In this document: piece by piece, positions 14,245-27,508 of the stretch
How the letters are laid out: each line of letters starts with the position of its first letter
How positions within the stretch are numbered: the stretch's first letter is position 1
Notes under the pieces: model-generated
Databases searched by the model: none
What the model was told of the DNA's origin: nothing
What the model saw: only the letters and a program-made list of their open reading frames with translations
Position numbers and translations under genes: made by a program
Assembly: GCA_017694845.1 (NCBI GenBank)
Contig: JADIMI010000007.1
Span: 1 to 64,000 of the forward strand
Length of the DNA stretch: 64,000 nucleotides
Direction: 5' to 3'
Source of the DNA: Candidatus Cryptobacteroides intestinavium
GTDB taxonomy: Bacteria; Bacteroidota; Bacteroidia; Bacteroidales; UBA932

Positions 14245-17088
14245 TCAGTTCCAGTCCTCCTTCTCGAAATCATCCACATTCCCTCCTGGATTTGACGAAT
14301 TCTGGACATACATTGCCTTCTGGAGCGCCTCTACGAAGACCGGTCCCATCACCGTCTCGAAACAGCCGGCATTAGGATGGACATCATCATTCCTGTATTC
14401 CTGCTTCAATGCCCCGTTCTCATCCACGAGGACAGAATAATAGTCGACATAGACGAATCCGTTCTCCTCGCAGTATGCCTTTATAAGTTCATTGAGATGT
14501 CTGATGCGAGGTATTACCGGATTTTCTTCATTCCAGGCATCATCCAGCCAGCCTATCCGGCCTGCAGGAGGCGTGGAGCCTATCATCACCTTTATTCCCC
14601 AGGAAGCTGCCTGTTCAGCCATTGTCCTGATGTTTTCGAAGATTTCCTCCTCTATAGGGATATCAGGCTCATTGTCATTATTGGCCATATCGTTGATACC
14701 TCCCATAATATGTACGACCTTAGGATCATTGGCTATGGCCTGGGAGAAGAACCGGGTGACAAAATTCGCGGTCGTAGTTCCATCCGCACCGAATGCGATG
14801 CAGTTATGGTCAGGGAAGAATGTCGGAACATAGCTGTTCCACGTCCTCGTAATGGAGTCTCCGATAAGTACACAGGCCGGACCTGAATGAGACAGCGAAA
14901 GGCTTCCGGTATCATCCTTGACGCAACGTACATTATAGCCTGCACCAAGATATGAATTGGCTGTCGATGCTCCCCACTGGTTCGCCTGCCACTGGTTATC
15001 TGACGTCACGTTGGCTGTCTCAAGGAACATTGTCCCTCCGGTAAGCGCCTGAATGAGGCTTCCTCCGAAACTTGCCTGCCTCTGACCGGTACAAGGGAAA
15101 TAGAATCCTGTCTTTTCACTGTAATAGCCGTTGTCCAGCGTCGTAAGGTTCGCCGCTGCAAAGACGTATGCTTCACGGGGCATCACTTTCCAGCCAGGAG
15201 GGCAAGGGTCATAGATTGTCTTGAGATTGTCCGCTTCCTCCGAACCGTATTCAGGATCCACGGCCGGGCAGCCCCACAGATAGCGCCATACCTTGGCATT
15301 GCCGGTTCCGGAAAGGCTTCCGCTGCGGGTCCAGTTATAGTTGTCGTTGGTACAGTTGCTTTCGGATGCAGACATCCATCTGTAAGGATATCTTATGGAT
15401 GCTTCCACCGCCTGGTCGACTGTATAGCTGTTTCCCAAAGCTCCCGAGAGCTGATAACAGTTGGCCGCTGCATCCGTACCGAAAATCAGGTCATTGAAGC
15501 CGAGTGTCTGCCGGTCCGCACTCTGCCGGTATTCTTCGACCGGTGTATGCGCAGGAAGTCCCCAGCTGCCCGTAGTTGAGCCGAGACTTGATTTCACCCC
15601 GCTGTTTGCCACATATTCAGCCGCTGCCGGGAACGGATCCTTGCGCCCCCACTGATAGTAATTGCCGACAGCGAGCACGGCCTGCTCCGCCGGAGAGTGC
15701 ATGACCTCCGGACCGGCAGCGGCTCCGAGATTCCTGTCCATCATAATATACCGTCCGGCACGGCCTGCCGATGCATCAGGATCATAGTTCTCCGCCGCCC
15801 AGATATTCCAGCTCCAGAGTATTTCCCCTCTGTCATCATATGCAGCCAGAAGCACATTGCCCGGCACGAACGGATCCGGAGTAGTGAAGAACACCATACC
15901 GAGTTCATATTTCAGTGATTCCAGCACTATAGGACATCTGTCCGCATAGCCATCGGCTGTCTTCGGAGTATTGTACCATACCACCCTTACATCCGCAGGA
16001 TTGATATCAAGATCCGAATATGAACGGGTTATCTCAGTGCCATCGCTCTCTGTCCAGGTGAAAGTCCTCGGCACCCCGTTCCCCTTGACCGTAGCACTGA
16101 ATCTGTACTGTGCCCCGGCCTTCGACACTATATATGTGTTGGCTGTTCCATCTGCACACAGATCCTCTGAATTCTCATAGCCATCCGAGCCCTTGTACTC
16201 GAAATCGACCGGATACGTTGTCAGTGTACCGGCATTGATACCGCCATCAGGAACGGCAAGGTCACCGAGAGAGACAGACTTGTCAGTGCCGTATTCCATA
16301 TCCAGAGAGAGGACAAGCCCCCTGGCAAGGGGATTTACTGCAAAATAGACGGTCACCGGTTCCCCGTAGATACTGACAGGTTCCGTAAAGTCATACTCGA
16401 TCTTATTTGACGGACTCACCGAAGAATCCCATGTGACAGTGCCGTCGACAAGATTGAGCACGCCCCCTTCAGATGCCAGACCGACACCCTGGTCTGCAGT
16501 GAGTGTAAGTTTCCTGGCAGATGGAACAGGGACATTGGACGTGATGTCCAGCCTTATGATCGCCGCTACGCTCGAGAAGTCAAGAGGGATATCCCGGACA
16601 GCCGGATCCACTTCCATTGATGATGCATACAGATTGAGATTCTCTTTCACGGAAGCCGTCTCTCCCGGTCTGCCTCCCTGTCTGGAAGAAACGGCGACAG
16701 GAATGGAGGTATAGTCATCGACAGAAGCCCTGTACGGATAGTAGGCGTAGATATCCCGCACTCCTGCGTCGGTCCCGTCCCATTCAATACCCTTGTCTCT
16801 GGATGGGCTGATAAATCTCACGCTTCCGGCCTCGTTGGAATAGGCCGCATAATAGACATTGCTCTGCTCGACCCGGCCATCAGCTACAGTGAACAGTCCA
16901 ATACGGTCCACATCTGCTTCCCACAGCAGGTTGAAGGCCTCTTCCGACGAACCTGAAGCCGTAAAGGTCGCAGTCCCTGTGAAAGCGACAGCATCCGGAT
17001 TGTACTCAGGTCCTTTCAGTTCTTCTTTCCGGCAGGCGAAAAGAGCCGCTGCCGCAAGCAGAAATGTCAAGAGTCTCGATGCTTTCAT
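14245..17088 (-). CDS. Fimbrillin-like/FISUMP lipoprotein fused to an SGNH hydrolase (paralogue 3)
   Basis: About 947 residues. I move the start from 17133 to the ATG at 17088, giving the lipoprotein signal KASRLLTFLLAAAALFAC. Order: Mfa-like domain (about 30-300), shared module at SEDLCADGTANTYIVS, FISUMP-like domain (DRNLGAAAGPEV, YYQWGRKDPFP, YDPCPPGWKVMP, NVRCVKDD), then from about residue 739 an SGNH/GDSL hydrolase. All four blocks are visible: CVLIGDSITR (Ser), the Gly block FGADG, GGIND (Asn) and DDVHPN (Asp, His). The fold resembles acetyl-esterase or PAF-acetylhydrolase-like enzymes. The protein ends VDDFEKEDWN, a tail shared with paralogue 2. The enzyme probably deacylates a polymer at the cell surface; the adhesin-like part would place it. 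The substrate is unknown. I regard the fusion as real because no stop or frame change intervenes. Confidence 0.85.
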   Translation of the reverse strand: MKASRLLTFLLAAAALFACRKEELKGPEYNPDAVAFTGTATFTASGSSEEAFNLLWEADVDRIGLFTVADGRVEQSNVYYAAYSNEAGSVRFISPSRDKGIEWDGTDAGVRDIYAYYPYRASVDDYTSIPVAVSSRQGGRPGETASVKENLNLYASSMEVDPAVRDIPLDFSSVAAIIRLDITSNVPVPSARKLTLTADQGVGLASEGGVLNLVDGTVTWDSSVSPSNKIEYDFTEPVSIYGEPVTVYFAVNPLARGLVLSLDMEYGTDKSVSLGDLAVPDGGINAGTLTTYPVDFEYKGSDGYENSEDLCADGTANTYIVSKAGAQYRFSATVKGNGVPRTFTWTESDGTEITRSYSDLDINPADVRVVWYNTPKTADGYADRCPIVLESLKYELGMVFFTTPDPFVPGNVLLAAYDDRGEILWSWNIWAAENYDPDASAGRAGRYIMMDRNLGAAAGPEVMHSPAEQAVLAVGNYYQWGRKDPFPAAAEYVANSGVKSSLGSTTGSWGLPAHTPVEEYRQSADRQTLGFNDLIFGTDAAANCYQLSGALGNSYTVDQAVEASIRYPYRWMSASESNCTNDNYNWTRSGSLSGTGNAKVWRYLWGCPAVDPEYGSEEADNLKTIYDPCPPGWKVMPREAYVFAAANLTTLDNGYYSEKTGFYFPCTGQRQASFGGSLIQALTGGTMFLETANVTSDNQWQANQWGASTANSYLGAGYNVRCVKDDTGSLSLSHSGPACVLIGDSITRTWNSYVPTFFPDHNCIAFGADGTTTANFVTRFFSQAIANDPKVVHIMGGINDMANNDNEPDIPIEEEIFENIRTMAEQAASWGIKVMIGSTPPAGRIGWLDDAWNEENPVIPRIRHLNELIKAYCEENGFVYVDYYSVLVDENGALKQEYRNDDVHPNAGCFETVMGPVFVEALQKAMYVQNSSNPGGNVDDFEKEDWN

Positions 17089-17254
17089 AAATGTATCAGT
17101 TATTAGTGTTAAATCAATTATGCAGTTGAACAAATTTCTTAATTATTACTATGTATGGAGGATAAAATAATACATAAAAAGGCCAATTTCATTTTATCAC
17201 GGTCCATATTTCAATCATTTCATCGCCTTAGCCGCCATTATGAGGACAACGGCA
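17089..17254. other. AT-rich intergenic region, likely promoter of the FISUMP genes
   Basis: 166 bp between the PorV-like gene and paralogue 3, both on the minus strand. It is AT-rich and non-coding. I find no exact TAnnTTTG; the nearest is TACATTTA directly at the start codon. It probably holds the promoter of the FISUMP genes and the end of the SusCD operon. Confidence 0.35.
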
Positions 17255-18225: not shown

Positions 18226-20613
18226 TTATCGCTTGATTATCCGCGCCGATACAACCGACCCGAAATAATCCACTTCACAGACATAGCGTCCCGGTGCAAG
18301 GGATCCGACATCCAGCGCCCCCGTCGGGGAATCAGACAGGCACGCACCGGAATCCTTTCCCGACCACCCGACACTGACCGTTCCGGAAAGCACCAGACCT
18401 CCCGATACATCATATATTCTCACCGGGAAGTCTCCATCGGCTCCCGGAATCCTTATATTAAGCATATCGGTACACGGATTCGGATACACATCGATATCCG
18501 CTCCGGCGGCTCCGACAATAATCCGGACCGGAATTCCCGCTGTCATACCATCGAGATCGGCTGCTATGACCGTGACAGTCACACTCCCTGTCCCGAGAGG
18601 AATCAGCCTGAGCACAGAGCCATCTGTCACGCGGCCCTCTACAATATCTCCATCCGGGAAGGAGGCGAAATAAGAAAGCCTGTCATCCGGCATATCGGCA
18701 TCTGTAAAACAGTCATCGAGAGGCACAGACACACCATCCTTGTCTCCGGCAGCGAGATAAATGTCAGATATCTCCCGCACAGCTTCAGGTGCAGTGTCTG
18801 AAGTCTTTGCCTGGAAGACATACGGAGCGGATGCCATCCCTCCGGGGCTGAGCCCGACTATGGCGATACAATACTCTGTATCAGTGTCAAGCCCATCCAT
18901 ATGACAGGAAACTGTCCGGCCGTCTTCACTTAACGTCACTTCCGGATCATATCTGACTGCCGAGGCGGGAATCTCATCCGCAGAGGATGCAGAAAAAGGA
19001 GTCCCGGAGACATATACGCCATACGAGACAAGAGGATCCCCCTTGTAGTCCATCGGAGCCTTCCACTGCATCTCTATCCTGCATCTGCGCCCGGTCGCTG
19101 TCACATCAGTGACCGGATCAGGCACGGCATCCCTGAAGAATATATATCCGGCATCTATCAGGCCGTTGCCGAGCTGTCCTGCATACTGAGGATTCATAGT
19201 TTCAGTAAGTTCCCTGCGGCCCGACTCAAGAAGGAGGGAGACAAGATCATCGTTTGTGAACCCGGGACCGCCGAACTCAGACACTGCAAGAGCCGCAATC
19301 CCCGAGACCTGCGGACAGGCCATGGACGTCCCGGAAGCGAATCCGTATTTCCCGCCCGGAAATGTACTGTAGACGCCAAGACGGCTGTCTCCGATTTCTC
19401 CGCCGGGCGCAGCGATATCGATCCAGTCCCCGTAATTGGAGCTGTAGGCCTTTCTGAAATCAGGGCCCAATGAGGCGACTGCTATCACAGGTCCGTACGC
19501 CGCCGGATATTTCGGAGTGTCGGTCCCATCATTCCCGGCAGCGAATATCACCACTCCTCCTTTCATAGGGCCTGTCTGTCTGCCGTTTTCGTCACAGCCG
19601 GCATTCCTTATGAAATAGTCGATTGCATCCTTGCCGGACTGAGACAGGTCGGTCGCTCCCGTATATGACCAGCTGTTCTGGCTGATCACCGCCCCGTGGT
19701 CAGCGGACCATGTCATTATATCAAATATGTCGGCATACCCTTCGTCATCGAAGACCTGGCAGCTCATCAGCTTCACTCCGCTTCCATCGCTTCCATCCCC
19801 TCCGGCTATGCCGCATACACCGATTCCGTTGTTGCTGACCGCCGCCACAATGCCGGCGACATGGGTCCCGTGGTCGCTCGGAGTGATATCATAACTGTGC
19901 CTGTTGAAATTATATCCGCAATGTCCTTCACCATCATCCCACATATTGGGAGCAAGATCCGGGTGGGTATAGTCTATACCTCCATCACATATCGCGACTA
20001 TCACATCGTCCCTCCCAGTCCCGACGGTCCAGGCCGGATATACATTTATATCCGCTCCTGCCGCAGAATAAGGAAGGCTTCCTTCATTGTGCATGAACCA
20101 TTGGTTGAAATGCAGAGGATCGTCAAAAGGGGGCACCGACATATCGAGAGGCATATACGTATGTGCCTCTGAAATGACAGCGGCTGTCTGTACCATACGG
20201 TAGACAGGCTCCACACAGACCACATTCTCCGGATTTCCGAATCTGGATATCGCTTCAGCGACCGTAATGTCTTCACTGAAACGGACGTCATACCATCTGT
20301 GCAGCCCGGCCCTGCGACGTCTCTCCATGAAGCGGCCGCCATCAGAGAACACACGGGAAATAGACACTGCACCTGCCCGTACCGCCGCCCTGTCGAACTC
20401 CTCGCTCCCAGACCCTCCGCTGCGGGTGAAGACTTTCGTATCCAGTGCAGGGGATGTCTCGCTCACCTTGACCCGGAAGACTCCGGGGACATACGCCTCT
20501 TCGGCAGAGACTGTCCCCGGGATATCCGGCACTTCCTGCATTTCGGACAGCCTGTCTGAACAGGCTGCCGAAAGCAGTACTGAAACGATATACGGAAGAA
20601 GTTGTCTTTTCAT
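18226..20613 (-). CDS. Subtilisin-like (S8) protease with T9SS sorting domain and lipoprotein signal
   Basis: About 795 residues. I use the ATG at 20613 (KRQLLPYIVSVLLSAAC), which gives a lipobox LSAAC; the ORF track starts six codons earlier. A propeptide-like region (about 30-170) precedes the peptidase domain. The catalytic triad is seen as VIVAICDGGIDYTHPDL (Asp), HGTHVAGIVAAV (His) and FASGTSMACPQVSG (Ser). A fibronectin III-like module follows (PDPVTDVTATGRR...). The last 90 residues are a type A T9SS sorting domain: DVYPNPCTDMLNIRI, VRIYDVSGGLV, LAPGRYVCEV, RIIKR. A lipoprotein signal combined with this sorting domain is unusual, since T9SS cargo normally uses a type I signal. Gene order after DUF4302 and before PorV-like indicates co-transcription with the SusCD genes. 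Probably degrades proteins outside the cell. Confidence 0.9.
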   Translation of the reverse strand: MKRQLLPYIVSVLLSAACSDRLSEMQEVPDIPGTVSAEEAYVPGVFRVKVSETSPALDTKVFTRSGGSGSEEFDRAAVRAGAVSISRVFSDGGRFMERRRRAGLHRWYDVRFSEDITVAEAISRFGNPENVVCVEPVYRMVQTAAVISEAHTYMPLDMSVPPFDDPLHFNQWFMHNEGSLPYSAAGADINVYPAWTVGTGRDDVIVAICDGGIDYTHPDLAPNMWDDGEGHCGYNFNRHSYDITPSDHGTHVAGIVAAVSNNGIGVCGIAGGDGSDGSGVKLMSCQVFDDEGYADIFDIMTWSADHGAVISQNSWSYTGATDLSQSGKDAIDYFIRNAGCDENGRQTGPMKGGVVIFAAGNDGTDTPKYPAAYGPVIAVASLGPDFRKAYSSNYGDWIDIAAPGGEIGDSRLGVYSTFPGGKYGFASGTSMACPQVSGIAALAVSEFGGPGFTNDDLVSLLLESGRRELTETMNPQYAGQLGNGLIDAGYIFFRDAVPDPVTDVTATGRRCRIEMQWKAPMDYKGDPLVSYGVYVSGTPFSASSADEIPASAVRYDPEVTLSEDGRTVSCHMDGLDTDTEYCIAIVGLSPGGMASAPYVFQAKTSDTAPEAVREISDIYLAAGDKDGVSVPLDDCFTDADMPDDRLSYFASFPDGDIVEGRVTDGSVLRLIPLGTGSVTVTVIAADLDGMTAGIPVRIIVGAAGADIDVYPNPCTDMLNIRIPGADGDFPVRIYDVSGGLVLSGTVSVGWSGKDSGACLSDSPTGALDVGSLAPGRYVCEVDYFGSVVSARIIKR

Positions 20614-20630: not shown

Positions 20631-21590
20631 TTACTGTTCAAGACGGATTTCAAGCAGAGAGTCGGTGCAGACAAAACAGTCAGATGCAGGGACCGCTCCT
20701 TTTCTCCATTCGAATGTCTGGATAGTCTGGTCACGGAGGCCTTCAAGCCCGCCCTTGAAAGTATAAGGTTCATAGAGACGCATAGTGCCGTCATGGTAGC
20801 AGATGAAAGACAGCACATCATTGACGTTGATATCCTCATATACAGGCTCACCTGTCTGTTCATCGAACATTGGCTCTCCGAGGCTGTCCGTACGCTGCTG
20901 CTGATAGGTATAGGAAACAGTCCACAGCTTGCTCTGGTAGCAGCGTTCGAAACTGTTCTCATCGTATGCAGCGGACCGGGTGACAGTGCCATACTGCCTG
21001 CCGTTGACCATCAGTTTCAGGGATGTCGGAGTCACGGACTTCTGACTCTCCCTGACCGCATCCACATATTCCTCCGGAGTGTAGCCATCAGGCAGCGGGT
21101 ACAGAATGATATCATTCTCTGTCTTGATACCGCGCATAGTGATCCTGCCGTCATGGGACATATCCATAAAGGTGAACTCGTAGTCTCCCTTATAACCCTG
21201 GAAACCTCCGTTGCCTCCCGGGAAGGTGAAATAGTGCAGGTAGTCGTTGTAATTCGTGAACTTGAGCATCGGACCGGTCGAATACTCCACTGTGTACGGA
21301 GTCTCGACATAGGTGTCTTCCGCAAAAGTCTCTCCTTCGAACCAGGCGCGGACAGTATGCCCTTCATTGAACTGGAGGACATACATCCAGCCTCCGTATT
21401 CGAGTTCTTCACTCGGGAAATACTCCATCACCCATGTCCTGCCATCAAGCAGGGCCTGGTCATATACGGCCACTCCCTTGGCAATGCGCTCATCCGCTGA
21501 GTCTTCAAAGACATAGAAATCATCTTCACATCCGGCCGCAGTAAACAGAGCGGCGGCAAGCAGTCCTGATATTTTGATCTTTCTGTTCAT
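20631..21590 (-). CDS. DUF4302 family lipoprotein
   Basis: A 319-residue lipoprotein; signal NRKIKISGLLAAALFTAAGC with lipobox TAAGC. The body matches the DUF4302 pattern as I know it: an opening segment RTWVMEYFPSEELEYGGWMY, then repeated aromatic beta-strands and GYKGDYEFTFMDMSHDGRI. DUF4302 proteins sit in SusC/SusD clusters together with the zinc metallohydrolase lipoprotein family, as here. No enzymatic motif is visible, and function is unknown; a surface substrate-binding role is plausible. 21 bp separate it from the upstream gene. Confidence 0.75.
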   Translation of the reverse strand: MNRKIKISGLLAAALFTAAGCEDDFYVFEDSADERIAKGVAVYDQALLDGRTWVMEYFPSEELEYGGWMYVLQFNEGHTVRAWFEGETFAEDTYVETPYTVEYSTGPMLKFTNYNDYLHYFTFPGGNGGFQGYKGDYEFTFMDMSHDGRITMRGIKTENDIILYPLPDGYTPEEYVDAVRESQKSVTPTSLKLMVNGRQYGTVTRSAAYDENSFERCYQSKLWTVSYTYQQQRTDSLGEPMFDEQTGEPVYEDINVNDVLSFICYHDGTMRLYEPYTFKGGLEGLRDQTIQTFEWRKGAVPASDCFVCTDSLLEIRLEQ

Positions 21591-21611: not shown

Positions 21612-22499
21612 CTAGTCATCCAGGTCATCCCAGTCTATACGGTCGATGCTGGCTACCCGGCCGGTATATATGTCATGCCACTTATAGACATCTATTCTGA
21701 ATTCATCCCTGAGCCAGGAGACAAGGATGTCCCTTTTCTTCTCAAGGAAAGGACGTCCTGTGTCGCCCGCCTGGGAAAGGGTGCTCTCCCACCAGTCGGC
21801 ATCGTTGCCGACAAGGGCAGCAACCATCACTGCAATGTCCTCGGCAGGCGAGGAACGTGCATAGTTGCTCAGGAAACCGTTCTGGAGATAGTCATTCGGG
21901 GCACTCGTGTACTGGTCCCCTATATAGCCATCCTTGGTCACAAGGTCATAGTCCACAGGCACAGCTATATTGCCATCGAGTATATGCGCGAACTCATGGA
22001 CAATGGTCCCCACATACTGTTCGCAGCTAGCCTGATCCTCGCAGTTGAAGAAGTTGACCCCGAGCAGATTGATCTGCAGGCCGTTCTCCGCGGATGCCAG
22101 CACTACGGTACCGGTACTTTCTATTTCGTGGCAGCCGACAAGGAAAAGCTGACGGGGGAAATAGGTCTTTGCGAGCAGGAGAGGATCATCCTCTGCAGAC
22201 ATCAGCTCCGCCATCCCGTCCAGTATGACATATTTGATCAGCTTGGCAAGCTGTATGGACTTGTCGACTGGAGGAGGAGAGACCCAGTAATTGAAATGAG
22301 TCTCCCTGTCGGGCATCCTGTACTCGAAGTTGATATTGTACGGATCGACATAATGGCGGTCAAGCCAGAGGTCGAACTCGCTTTTGACTGCCCCTTCATA
22401 GCTGTCAAAGATACTGCTGCTGTCCGGCTCATCCTTGAAGCACGAAGTAAGCATCAGCGCGGCCATCGCCACAAGAAGATATGTAATCGTATTTTTCAT
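21612..22499 (-). CDS. Substrate import-associated zinc metallohydrolase lipoprotein
   Basis: A 295-residue lipoprotein (signal KNTITYLLVAMAALMLTSC). The zinc site is VGTIVHEFAHILDG, an HExxH motif, and a third ligand is likely further on. The family is named for its regular place beside SusC/SusD, consistent with its position 22 bp after SusD here. It probably acts on peptides or another imported substrate at the outer membrane. The bond cleaved is not established for the family to my knowledge. Confidence 0.85.
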   Translation of the reverse strand: MKNTITYLLVAMAALMLTSCFKDEPDSSSIFDSYEGAVKSEFDLWLDRHYVDPYNINFEYRMPDRETHFNYWVSPPPVDKSIQLAKLIKYVILDGMAELMSAEDDPLLLAKTYFPRQLFLVGCHEIESTGTVVLASAENGLQINLLGVNFFNCEDQASCEQYVGTIVHEFAHILDGNIAVPVDYDLVTKDGYIGDQYTSAPNDYLQNGFLSNYARSSPAEDIAVMVAALVGNDADWWESTLSQAGDTGRPFLEKKRDILVSWLRDEFRIDVYKWHDIYTGRVASIDRIDWDDLDD

Positions 22500-22521: not shown

Positions 22522-24186
22522 TTACTGACGGAAAGGATGATCAGGCTGGTCGGCGTTGCGCGGATTGCGGGTAAGTCCTGCCGAAATCACCTCGTACGGG
22601 AGCTGAATGGCACGGCGCAGGTCTGTATGTTCGAGGGTCTCCGCCACACGGTAGCCTTCTGTGTCCTCATCCACATAGTTAATGAGATCGAACCTGTCGA
22701 CATCTATCCCGTAACGTTTTACATCCTGCCAGCGGAGTCCATCCGCAAGGGTCTCGATACGGCGGCAGTAGAGCAGACACTGTATCATATTCTCCTGTTC
22801 ACCCGGATCGACCGTGAAGCCGTGCGGATGCAGGGCCTTGCGGGAAGTGGGATGCTCCGCTGTATATTCCGGTATATAGGCCTCTGATTCAGGATCGCCA
22901 TAGACTTCATTGATACGCTCCCTTGTCAGATGCACTATCCCGTTCTCGCCGACCTTGAACATAGAGCAGCTCCATGTGTCCATATCCTTCACTGCATCAT
23001 CATACCTCCTGAGGTGGATATAGGCTTCTGCACGGCAGAGCAGGGTCTCGTTGGTGGTGAAGGCCACCATTGTAGAACGGCCGTAACCGACTCCTGTTAT
23101 CTGGTCCAGAGTCTGCCACTGGTCAGGCCATTTAGGCATATATATCTTCTGTATATTGTCATTGATATACGGCTGGTAGAGATATGTCCTGTCAAGGGAT
23201 TTCTGCCCCCAGAGGTCATACGGGCCCCCCATAGGGCGAGGCGCCCTGTAGGTCTCCTGCTTGGAGAGACGGTAGGTGTGGGTAAACCTGGCGCCCGATT
23301 CGCTCCAGGCATTGAAAAACTTGCCGTTGGTGGAGAAGAGAGGGATGAGAAGAAGGTTGAACTCGTGGGAAGGGTCGATATAATCGAACGCCTGTCTCCC
23401 CCATTCAGCCTTGGCTGCATCCGGCCAGTCTCTCAGCACTATGGACGGTTCGCTGCCGAGCACTGCATCGGCATGCTCTATGACCTTGTCCCATTTCATA
23501 TAATAGAGATAGAACCTTGCCGCGAACGCATTGGCCGCATCTCGGTTGAAATGGTATTTAGGCACCGTATAGACATTGTCATCGATAAGAGGAAGTCCCT
23601 CCTCTATGTCTGCTGCGATATACCGGTACACATCCTCGAGACTGCCTCTCTCGTAATGCGGATTGAGAGTCTTTTCCGGAGCCAGCATATACGGGATGCC
23701 CATATACATGGAAGCCTTCTCCGGGTGATAAGGGAGGCAGTACAGCATTGAAAGACAGAAATGGCAGTACGCACGGCATATCAGGGCTTCTCCTTTGGCA
23801 GGAAGAAGTTCCTCCGGCGTCCCGAGGTTCTCGATCGCCTCGAGCGCCGTATTGGCATTGGAGATGGCGTTGTAGTACTGCTGCCAGGTGTTCTGGTTGC
23901 TCTCGTTCTCAGCATCGATCATATCGTTCCAGTAGGCATTCTGGAGCAGCAGACGGGAGAAGTTCGGATCATCCTCGCCCTGATCGTCCACATTGTCAGA
24001 GGATATCTCGCACATCCGGACATATGTCCTGTCCGGATAGGCAGACACCAGAAGCTTGTATATCTTCTCCGATGTGTCCAGCTCGGCACGGTTGTCCGGC
24101 AGCTCATCCAGGAATTCAGAGCATCCGGCAAGGATGCACAGAGCTGCAAAGACAGATGTAAATTTCAATATGTTTCTTGTATTCAT
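22522..24186 (-). CDS. SusD/RagB family substrate-binding lipoprotein
   Basis: A 554-residue surface lipoprotein; signal ends LAALCILAGC-like (CILAGCSEF). TPR-like helices at the N-terminus (EFLDELPDNRAELDTSEKIYKLL, then the WQQYYNAISNANTALEAIENL segment) and the C-terminal DGLRWQDVKRYGIDVDRF region are characteristic of SusD/RagB. It would close over its SusC partner and capture the substrate at the cell surface. Start codon lies 4 bp after the SusC stop, so the pair is translationally coupled. With a protease and metallohydrolase in the operon, a peptide substrate (as for RagAB) is as likely as a glycan. Confidence 0.93.
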   Translation of the reverse strand: MNTRNILKFTSVFAALCILAGCSEFLDELPDNRAELDTSEKIYKLLVSAYPDRTYVRMCEISSDNVDDQGEDDPNFSRLLLQNAYWNDMIDAENESNQNTWQQYYNAISNANTALEAIENLGTPEELLPAKGEALICRAYCHFCLSMLYCLPYHPEKASMYMGIPYMLAPEKTLNPHYERGSLEDVYRYIAADIEEGLPLIDDNVYTVPKYHFNRDAANAFAARFYLYYMKWDKVIEHADAVLGSEPSIVLRDWPDAAKAEWGRQAFDYIDPSHEFNLLLIPLFSTNGKFFNAWSESGARFTHTYRLSKQETYRAPRPMGGPYDLWGQKSLDRTYLYQPYINDNIQKIYMPKWPDQWQTLDQITGVGYGRSTMVAFTTNETLLCRAEAYIHLRRYDDAVKDMDTWSCSMFKVGENGIVHLTRERINEVYGDPESEAYIPEYTAEHPTSRKALHPHGFTVDPGEQENMIQCLLYCRRIETLADGLRWQDVKRYGIDVDRFDLINYVDEDTEGYRVAETLEHTDLRRAIQLPYEVISAGLTRNPRNADQPDHPFRQ

Positions 24187-24190
24187 ATCT

Positions 24191-27100
24191 TTAGATACCT
24201 ATTCTGAGGGTTAGGGTAAACTGTTTCGGCATAGGGGTGGCCACTCCGCCTGAATTGAAGAATTCAGGATCCTGTCCCTGGAGACGTCTGTCCGAATAGA
24301 TCAGGAACGGGTTGGTAGCCTGGAATTTCAGCGACAGCGCATTGAGTCTGATCCTGTCCAGTATCCTTTTCGGGAAATCATAGGTCAGGGACATCTCCTT
24401 CATTCTGATGAAGTCTCCCTTCGCCACCCTCACATCCGAATAGTTGTATGCGCTGTAAGCCATCGCGAGATTGGATGTCTCGTTGTTATACCTCGAGCTG
24501 ACAATTGTCGGCACATCGGTATATTTTTCATCTCCGGGATTGATGTAGCGGTTGGCAAATTCACGTGGAGTTGCCGTAAGATCCGAATAGACATTCGAGA
24601 AGATCGGATCAAGACGGACTACATTTCCGAATGAATATGTAATGAAAATATTGAGGGTAAATCCTTTATACTTGAAGATATTACCGAAGCTCCCGGTTAT
24701 GGTCGGGTCCGCAGGACCTTCATAGACAAGGCGGTCGGTGGTAATGTCCTGGAACGCCACGCCTGTGGTGGTCACCTTGCCATCGGACGGGTTGATGAAT
24801 GTAGGTATGCCCATCTCGTCCAGCCCGACATAATCCACGGAAAAAATCGAGCCGCGAGGCTTGCCCTCGACGGAATAACCGGTTCCGGTTATGAAATCGA
24901 TGACCCGGGTAGTCGTCTTGAGCCTGGTCACAGTATTGTCCATCCATGCGAAAATGAGGTTGCTGTCCCATGTGAAATCCTTCGTCTTGACATTGACAGT
25001 ATGAAGCGAAAGTTCCACTCCGTGCGATTTCATCTCCGCCACGTTGCCCATCTTGTTGATCACACCTCCGAGTCCCATCGTAATGGTGTTGCCTATGAGG
25101 TCAAAGTTATTGCGCTTATAGGCATCGGCTGAAATGGAAATCCTGTTGTTGAACAGCCCGAGATCGAGGCCGACATTGAATTCGTGTTTCTTTTCGTAGG
25201 TGAGCTCGGAATTCTCAGGAGAAGAGACGGCAAGGCCGGACTCGGTATATTCTGTATCTCCCCTCCAGGGATTGGTCGGATAGATTGTCACGAGAGAGTT
25301 GCTCACGCTCGATGGTCCGCGGTCGGCTGTCAGGGAATAGGAAAGCCTGAGGCCGAGAGTCGAGATTGTCGGGGAAACCTTCTCGAAGAAAGGCTCCTGG
25401 TCGATCGACCATCTTCCCGCTATATTCCAAGTCGGGAGCCAGCGGGCAGTCCGTGACCGGCCCAGACGGTTGGAGCCCTCATAACGGAGAGTGCCATTGA
25501 TCGTATAACGGTAGTCGTACGTATAGGATGCCGTACCTGCAAACGCCACATTGCGCTCGCGCGTATTGGTAAGGCTGTAGTACTGGGTGCCATCCTCCAG
25601 CTGTTTCTTGAACAGATCCAGGATATAATACGGGGTCTCCCCCATTGCATACTGCATGCCCCAGCCGGTAAAGGATGAAGAAGAGCGGTCAAGACCGTTG
25701 ACTTCCATCATGCCGTATGCATTGACGATATGCCTGTCCTTGAATGTGTTGTTATAGGTCGCGGATGCACGGAAATCCCAGCTGAGCGCCCTGTAGTCGT
25801 TTCTGCGGTAGATACCGCCTTCAGGGAGGATAGAATATTTCTCGCCCTGCACATCCGGATTGTCATAGAGATAAGGGTTCATACCCTGTATGGTGGAATT
25901 CGGCATAGAACGGTAGGCCTCCGCCTGGTTGGAGCCTTCCTTGATATGGTGCTCCGTGGATGATGACGAATACTTCACCGCTCCGAGGGCCGACACCACC
26001 AGCTTCGGGGTGATGTTCCATTTGAGCTCCGCCTGGAACTTGGAATCGAACACGTTCAGGTCCATATAGTTCTTGGACAGCTCATCCTTGATGTTGAACG
26101 GAGTGTAGTTCCTGGTATAGAACTCGTCCGGATCAAGCGTACGTGATGTGCGCAGGGCGTACGAGTACGGGTTGATGTCAAAATCCCTGGAAACGGTGCC
26201 GAATACCGGGTCAAGCTCGGAAGAAAGTGATCCCGGTGCAGTCTGCTTACGGTAGGAGGCATTGCCTATGAGATTGAGAGTAAGCTTGTCCTTCAGCAGG
26301 TTCTGTGTGGCGTTCAGGAGCATGGTATAACGGTTGACCTTGCTCTGAAGCGTCCAGCCGGGATCTACCAGGGCGCCGAGAGATGCATAATAGGAACCCT
26401 TCTCGGAACCTGATGTGATGCTCACCGAATGACTGTGCTGGACACTTGGCTGGAAAAGTTCCTTGAACCAGTCGGTATTGCGCATTTCCGCCTGACGCAG
26501 ATACTCCATCATTCCTTCCTTGGTATTTATGACACCGTAGCCGGTCTCGGGATCGTAGGTGTTTATGAGCTGGGACATCTTTCCATATACACCGCTCTCT
26601 GCACCTACCACCTTATCCGCATAGTTGAGCCAGCCCTTGTCGTACATCTCCTGATATACCGACATCTGTTCCTGGGAATTCATTATGTTGAACTGGGAGT
26701 AACTCGGCACCATACGCATAGTATATTCACCCGTATATGACACGCGGGTAACTCCCGGACGGCCTTTCTTCGTCGTCACCACAATCACTCCGGCCATCGC
26801 CCTTGCCCCGTAGATGGATGTCGCGGAACCATCCTTCAGGATCTGGAAGCTCTCGATGTCATCCGGATTGAGCCCTGAAATAGCCGAACTTATGAGAGTG
26901 GTGGCATCGCCTGATGACAGAGAGTTGGCATCCACATCCACCACATCCTCCATTATCACGCCATCGACCACCCATATAGGCTTCGAGTCACCATAGATGG
27001 AAGATGCGCCACGGATCCTGATCTTGGGTGCAGCACCGAAGGTTCCGGATACATTCTGCACTGACACTCCGGCGGAACGGCCTTCAAGACTGCGGGCGAT

Positions 27101-27508
27101 CTCGCCCACGCCATCCAGTTTTATGTCCTCCGCCTGAAGCTGGTCTGTCGCTCCGGTGAAGACACGTCTGTCCACCCTCTGCATACCGGTCACCACTACC
27201 GAGGCAAGCTCCTCTGAATCCGGGACCATCGCGAAATCTATACGGTCTGCCGCAGCTCTTTTCTCTATCGGCACATAACCGAGGAAATATGCCCGCAAAA
27301 CAGCGTTCTCCGGGACATTCTTCAATGTGTAGTTACCATCGATGTCCACTGCCGTACCATCATCAGTGCCGACAATCTGGATGACGGCTCCCACCATCGG
27401 CGCCCCTGTCTCATCCACCACTTTTCCAGTGACGGTCCTGGTCTGCTGGGCAAAGGCGTGGCCCGCCGTCCAGAGACAGAGCAGAAAGAAAACGATAAAT
27501 CTTTTCAT
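24191..27508 (-). CDS. SusC/RagA family TonB-dependent transporter
   Basis: A 1105-residue outer-membrane transporter. It has a signal peptide (ending AFAQQ), an N-terminal carboxypeptidase-regulatory-like domain (VTGKVVDETGAPMVGAVIQI), the plug domain (SVVVTGMQRVDRRVFTGA, RIRGASSIYGDSKPIWVVDG, YGARAMAGVIVVTTKKG) and a 22-strand-type barrel ending in FTLTLRIGI. Length is normal for the family. No anti-sigma/STN extension is visible at the N-terminus, which fits control by the nearby hybrid two-component protein. It imports the substrate captured by SusD using TonB energy. Confidence 0.95.
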   Translation of the reverse strand: MKRFIVFFLLCLWTAGHAFAQQTRTVTGKVVDETGAPMVGAVIQIVGTDDGTAVDIDGNYTLKNVPENAVLRAYFLGYVPIEKRAAADRIDFAMVPDSEELASVVVTGMQRVDRRVFTGATDQLQAEDIKLDGVGEIARSLEGRSAGVSVQNVSGTFGAAPKIRIRGASSIYGDSKPIWVVDGVIMEDVVDVDANSLSSGDATTLISSAISGLNPDDIESFQILKDGSATSIYGARAMAGVIVVTTKKGRPGVTRVSYTGEYTMRMVPSYSQFNIMNSQEQMSVYQEMYDKGWLNYADKVVGAESGVYGKMSQLINTYDPETGYGVINTKEGMMEYLRQAEMRNTDWFKELFQPSVQHSHSVSITSGSEKGSYYASLGALVDPGWTLQSKVNRYTMLLNATQNLLKDKLTLNLIGNASYRKQTAPGSLSSELDPVFGTVSRDFDINPYSYALRTSRTLDPDEFYTRNYTPFNIKDELSKNYMDLNVFDSKFQAELKWNITPKLVVSALGAVKYSSSSTEHHIKEGSNQAEAYRSMPNSTIQGMNPYLYDNPDVQGEKYSILPEGGIYRRNDYRALSWDFRASATYNNTFKDRHIVNAYGMMEVNGLDRSSSSFTGWGMQYAMGETPYYILDLFKKQLEDGTQYYSLTNTRERNVAFAGTASYTYDYRYTINGTLRYEGSNRLGRSRTARWLPTWNIAGRWSIDQEPFFEKVSPTISTLGLRLSYSLTADRGPSSVSNSLVTIYPTNPWRGDTEYTESGLAVSSPENSELTYEKKHEFNVGLDLGLFNNRISISADAYKRNNFDLIGNTITMGLGGVINKMGNVAEMKSHGVELSLHTVNVKTKDFTWDSNLIFAWMDNTVTRLKTTTRVIDFITGTGYSVEGKPRGSIFSVDYVGLDEMGIPTFINPSDGKVTTTGVAFQDITTDRLVYEGPADPTITGSFGNIFKYKGFTLNIFITYSFGNVVRLDPIFSNVYSDLTATPREFANRYINPGDEKYTDVPTIVSSRYNNETSNLAMAYSAYNYSDVRVAKGDFIRMKEMSLTYDFPKRILDRIRLNALSLKFQATNPFLIYSDRRLQGQDPEFFNSGGVATPMPKQFTLTLRIGI

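Follow-up and report, generated by a model that had tools for sequence, protein, structure and literature searches.

Mirolase of T. forsythia is a subtilisin-type enzyme exported by means of a signal peptidase I (SPI) signal. T. forsythia possesses a type IX secretion system (T9SS; PMC4175972), apparently unlike the genome considered here, that of Candidatus Cryptobacteroides intestinavium (GCA_017694845.1), from which the first 64,000 nucleotides of contig JADIMI010000007.1, hereafter the window, were analysed. Within the T9SS some C-terminal domains (CTDs) are not cleaved off; that of PorZ stays docked on PorQ and that of PorU on PorV, both partners being PorV-type barrels (PMC10202324). In solved complexes an almost invariant lysine near the C-terminus of the CTD touches PorV, although its partner atoms differ (PMC10994853). 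A barrel related to FadL and PorV also holds a surface lipoprotein in the BAM complex of Bacteroides, where BamG binds BamH via extracellular loops, and where a PorV-like shuttle role for BamG was judged unlikely by the authors (PMC12578637). We found no description of a CTD-bearing lipoprotein paired with PorV without a T9SS in the open-access literature that we searched.

The window encodes an S8 subtilase in which a lipobox is followed by an S8_N prodomain, a catalytic domain, an fn3-like region and a type A-like CTD (Table 1). The S8 family profile matches at 140 bits, S8_N is also matched (Pfam), and the catalytic Asp, His and Ser motifs (DGG, HGTHVAG and GTSMACP) are all intact. The N-terminus reads MKRQLLPYIVSVLLSAAC followed by SDRLSEMQE and, as read from the sequence, satisfies the PROSITE-type pattern; its lipobox, LLSAAC, is assigned by consensus pattern and conservation. 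When the protease was used as a query, the search returned one true ortholog, 71% identical, at a locus on the MAG contig CALUPT010000007.1 (L209), along with weak CTD-only matches. This ortholog backs the start at 20613, in that MKRQLLPYIVLVLLSAAC is shared and the residues ahead of it diverge. The original prediction had allowed that an upstream start might remove the lipobox, but a start at the other in-frame ATG, at 20631, would lengthen the protein by six residues and leave the lipobox in place. The ortholog retains both MKRQLLPYIVLVLLSAAC and the terminal IIKR, and because lipobox and CTD are conserved there and throughout the genus, their union in one reading frame, as first reported for this gene, is real and not a product of chance.

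Table 1. Positions of the protease, its parts and its neighbours in the window.
Feature	Position	Strand	Basis
PorV-family outer-membrane barrel, short-loop form, 319 aa	17255..18214	-	NF033709, PF19572; signal peptide ...VYAQ
S8 subtilase lipoprotein, 795 aa	18226..20613	-	ATG 20613, stop 18226; family profiles and motifs
T9SS type A-like CTD, near-terminal Lys (IIKR)	18229..18489	-	profile matches, 7-strand model, Foldseek
Lipoprotein signal peptide MKRQLLPYIVSVLLSAAC	20560..20613	-	+1 Cys is residue 18; conserved in L209 and genus
DUF4302 lipoprotein	20631..21590	-	PF14135, 130 bits; lipobox TAAGC; same direction
Zinc metallopeptidase lipoprotein (Peptidase_Mx1 / TIGR04549)	21612..22499	-	217.8 and 225.3 bits
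SusD-family lipoprotein	22522..24186	-	PF14322, PF07980
SusC-type TonB-dependent transporter	24191..27508	-	1105-aa ORF; named by SusD adjacency and an equal-length syntenic SusC-like ORF in L209

The C-terminus of the protease (DIDVYPNPCTDMLNIRI...PGRYVCEVDYFGSVVSARIIKR, ending ARIIKR) gives profile scores that are marginal when this protein is taken singly, PF18962 (Por_Secre_tail) falling slightly short of its cut-off of 27 in hmmscan (24.1 bits) and slightly exceeding it in the genome search (28.5 bits), and TIGR04183 matching at 18.1 bits (cut-off 23). When the terminal 97 residues were modelled with AlphaFold from a two-sequence input, the model had seven strands and a mean pLDDT of 75.6. 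Its best PDB match by Foldseek is the CTD of mirolase (8qb1, E 2e-4); the translocon-bound CTD of NucA (8glk) ranks fourth (E 1.5e-3), and two of the top five matches are DUF3244 structures. Judged by this model, the fold is genuine despite the marginal scores. Across the genus the near-terminal lysine is retained in 63 of 65 CTDs, the other two, both from this genome, having arginine, and the persistence of this lysine and of the CTD motifs in divergent proteins suggests that the domain is under constraint.

That T9SS cargo normally carries an SPI signal, a premise of the original prediction, agrees with our controls: in 20 loci from SprA-positive families, which were the best-scoring matches and include one duplicated gene, none of the 18 complete proteins has a strict lipobox and most have SPI sites of the ...AQ type. 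The genus behaves otherwise. At its fully fetched loci there are 62 CTD proteins with complete starts, to all of which one start-choice rule was applied; 55 have a strict lipobox and all 62 have a cysteine after A, G or S ([AGS]C). The same is true of every one of the 18 complete CTD proteins from SprA-less genomes outside the genus (15 strict), so that a cysteine in this setting, at the end of a hydrophobic stretch, recurs in three further SprA-less genera. It had been suggested that the cysteine might not be lipidated; this is unlikely, and the protease is predicted to be lipidated there, though an SPI site ahead of the cysteine, another possibility raised with the original prediction, retains some probability. 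Residues after the cysteine are also biased across the genus, with K/R at +3 in 55% of proteins and D/E at +4 and +5 in 53% and 47% (background 10% for K/R and 18% for D/E). The resulting consensus, [TSA], then K/R, E, E (C-x-[KR]-E-E), resembles the optimal surface-lipoprotein export signal of Capnocytophaga canimorsus, C-X-K-(D/E)2-X (PMC5080379). The window protease itself, with CSDRLSE, is only a partial match to that signal, which counts against the reading that we favour.

T9SS genes were searched for family by family. SprA was undetected in the window genome, an assembly that is 89% complete, and in all 25 genomes of the genus tested (itself included), several of them at least 95% complete, as against its presence in 16 of 16 genomes from other families of the order. 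It was found in 277 of 295 genomes across the order, and in that order-wide sample it is also missing from the genomes of family f1 (the window genome, one further member of g1, and genera g18 and g19). PorU gave no match in the window genome and, over the 25 genomes, a single weak partial match below cut-off, in G002, where it overlaps the CTD gene; GldN was found in none of the 25, the window genome included. GldL and GldM are nevertheless still encoded in the window genome (L049:7356-9209, minus strand, on contig G000:C52), a point against our preferred reading. They adjoin an OmpA-like gene and are flanked by neither GldK nor GldN; GldL is missing from the other 24 genomes. Contamination was considered as their source and rejected, the tetranucleotide profile of the contig agreeing with that of the window (0.955). 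The GldKLMN core appears incomplete, with GldL and GldM present and GldN absent, and among the attributes of a type A cargo the window offers the CTD, while the SPI signal is replaced by a lipobox, assigned by pattern and conservation, and SprA and PorU are undetected. Separately, an order-mate of family f15 (G038) has SprA, GldL, GldN and one CTD match, PorU not being found there, and possibly possesses a reduced T9SS.

Since the genome lacks a detectable T9SS translocon or sortase, the protease is not ordinary T9SS cargo; no route for such cargo is apparent in this genome, and the original framing of the protein as cargo in need of unusual processing fits poorly. It might be objected that a T9SS is present and was missed in an incomplete assembly, the protease being an unusual lipidated cargo after all. 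The level of completeness, and a GldL and GldM that score above their equivalog cut-offs, could be cited in support, but we consider this very unlikely, given three undetected components in this genome, the absence of SprA from all 25 genus genomes, and a GldLM pair with neither GldK nor GldN at its side. The number of potential cargoes is also at odds with it: there are three CTD genes here, and 0-3 per genome among the 25 (0-4 among 200 genus genomes), whereas 14 of the 16 genomes from other families of the order have at least 26 and up to more than 100.

The original prediction overlooked the gene directly downstream, which encodes a PorV-family barrel and whose ATG lies 11 bases past the protease stop. 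We regard this gene as the key to the case, for in its context the conflict between lipoprotein signal and T9SS domain largely dissolves. The barrel belongs to the PorV/PorQ family by NF033709 (169 bits, cut-off 90) and matches PF19572 at 53.5 bits, but falls below the cut-off of the T9SS PorV equivalog NF033710 (113 bits against 250). Its only match among solved structures is PorV of F. johnsoniae (6h3i_F); a two-sequence structure prediction of the barrel reached a pLDDT of 27.5 and was left out of the evidence. In aligned sequences the PorVs of the genus are without one segment of about 68 residues of the translocon PorV (F. johnsoniae 254-321), which, from the order of strands, would correspond to an extracellular loop.

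In the window genome a PorV-family gene comes after each of the three CTD genes. Among the 150 genus CTD matches listed, 101 are followed on the same strand by a PorV-family match at a distance of 66-329 bp (median 103); for the remainder, the matches listed place PorV some 2 kb upstream or include none. The association is not universal, and three observations run against our reading: at least one CTD match occurs in 113 of 200 genus genomes and about 40% of those sampled have none, some genomes have PorV-family matches without CTD matches, and at several CTD loci the next gene is something other than PorV. Among the control genomes, Bacteroides ihuae differed from the 13 others in giving sub-cut-off matches to CTD and PorV family alike, and may carry the same pair.

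The two partners also diverge together. In a mirror-tree comparison of 45 protease-PorV pairs, CTD distances track PorV distances (r 0.57; partial correlation 0.48, with a permutation p of 0.0005, once the fn3 region and the catalytic domain are accounted for) and those of the catalytic domain do not (partial -0.12). Linkage could yield such a correlation, because the CTD end of the gene abuts PorV. There are, however, six loci at which PorV lies by the N-terminus of the protease instead, one of them divergently oriented, and when these are pooled the CTD still correlates with PorV at 0.41, against 0.03 for the catalytic domain. Linkage therefore does not explain the pooled signal; taken singly, four of these loci track (0.44-0.55) and two do not (r 0.05 and 0.11), the latter counting against our reading.

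This co-divergence, together with the pairing of the genes, bears on the notion that CTD and PorV are functionless relics. Loss of a T9SS in the lineage could leave remnants of this kind, and the profile scores of genus CTDs are indeed below those of T9SS-positive families. Yet the motifs and lysine are kept in divergent proteins, the CTD and PorV of the L209 locus are both intact at 68% and 65% identity to those of the window, and a lipobox-type cysteine is found in all complete copies examined, unlike the controls; we find it highly improbable that such a pair is without function.

The genes upstream of the protease suggest a nutrient-uptake setting. The order at L209 matches that of the window (SusC-like, SusD-like, Mx1-like, DUF4302-like, protease, PorV, fimbrillin/GDSL-like), the identities of the neighbours being similarities to window genes read from translations. 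The last of these corresponds in the window to a lipoprotein with fimbrillin-like and GDSL lipase domains (14245-17133, minus strand), downstream of PorV and in the same direction. Of 47 long genus loci, 32 include a SusC homolog within the stretch fetched, a raw count that takes no account of background. It could be argued from such surroundings that the barrel conducts a small hydrophobic ligand in the manner of FadL and is near the protease merely by virtue of the nutrient cluster, and that the CTD is simply a stable beta-sandwich. The profile of the PorV partner does give weak matches to the FadL-type channels TbuX and TodX, but its best structural relative is PorV, and it is the CTD and not the catalytic domain that co-diverges with it; we therefore hold this explanation to be rather improbable.

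The arrangement of lipoprotein-CTD gene and PorV recurs in other SprA-less genomes. In another genus of the same family (G325) a PorV gene lies beside two lipobox S8-CTD genes, and in family f106 (G305) such a gene is followed within 12 bp by PorV. Two genomes of family f113 (G312 and G412) have several lipobox S8-CTD genes and no PorV in the fetched stretches, which is against our reading; in one of them (G412:C8, about 1,227,700-1,256,200; L230 and L231) ten S8-CTD genes form a tandem array, nine with complete lipoprotein-type starts. These genomes are relevant to the proposal that PorV is itself the exporter, a short-loop barrel that brings the lipoprotein to the surface via its CTD by a minimal, translocon-free route. 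CTD and PorV do co-diverge and usually adjoin, and every complete CTD protein examined in SprA-less genomes is a predicted lipoprotein, as this proposal would have it. However, in translocon structures PorV takes cargo out through SprA and forms no pore itself (PMC10994853), the f113 genomes have CTD lipoproteins without a PorV in the stretches fetched, and the post-cysteine residues of the genus already resemble a surface-export signal; we consider an exporting PorV unlikely.

Our contention is that the window protein is a surface lipoprotein protease of family S8, situated next to a SusCD importer and docked through an uncleaved CTD on a PorV barrel of its own, and we would put the probability of this at about 0.6. 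It draws on the observed union of lipobox and CTD, the undetected SprA, PorU and GldN, the pairing and co-divergence with PorV, and the loss of one PorV segment; surface exposure, physical docking and a function in peptide uptake are what we infer from these sequences. In the mechanism that we propose, the protease would be exported by Sec, lipidated, cleaved by signal peptidase II at Cys18, carried by Lol transport, and flipped across the outer membrane to its external side along the surface-lipoprotein route of Bacteroidota. Its uncleaved CTD would then dock on the cognate barrel, so that two attachment points would keep the enzyme next to the SusCD/zinc-peptidase importer encoded in the same cluster, to which it could supply peptides. 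This suggests that a tag-and-grip pair, CTD and PorV, survived the loss of the secretion apparatus and today positions lipoproteins on the cell surface. A broader proposition, that several SprA-less lineages of Bacteroidales keep a reduced, stand-alone CTD/PorV module that brings lipoprotein proteases to the surface or fixes them there with no need of a translocon, motor ring or sortase, PorV being active in delivery, is speculative and in our opinion doubtful.

If our main contention is correct, a T9SS CTD annotation does not equate to type IX secretion; in SprA-less genomes it would mark lipoproteins of the cell surface, frequently accompanied by a barrel of their own, and the annotation of CTD proteins in such genomes would change. 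The contact between CTD and PorV would also be separated from the translocon, offering a simple two-protein system for the grip of PorV on a CTD, and it would follow that a secretion machine can vanish while its carrier step stays and is reused.

Among known systems, the KLIKK proteases, e.g., mirolase (PMC4404884, 8qb1), are likewise T9SS-CTD proteases, and no solved structure matches the CTD described here better than that of mirolase. The PorZ-PorQ and PorU-PorV pairs belong to the T9SS attachment complex, while in the present genome no T9SS was detected and it is a lipoprotein protease that would occupy the barrel. The BamG-BamH complex (PMC12578637) is not known to include a CTD-bearing S8 protease. 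PorV of the T9SS translocon (F. johnsoniae, 6h3i and 8gl6-8gln; P. gingivalis PorV) is of the same barrel family and is the best solved relative, and the likeness extends to a type A-like CTD as the presumed ligand and to the retained lysine near its end. The differences are that SprA and PorU are undetected here and that about 68 residues are missing from the aligned genus PorVs; moreover, the partner of the barrel is predicted to be lipidated, and as a rule a barrel has a single CTD gene as its counterpart.
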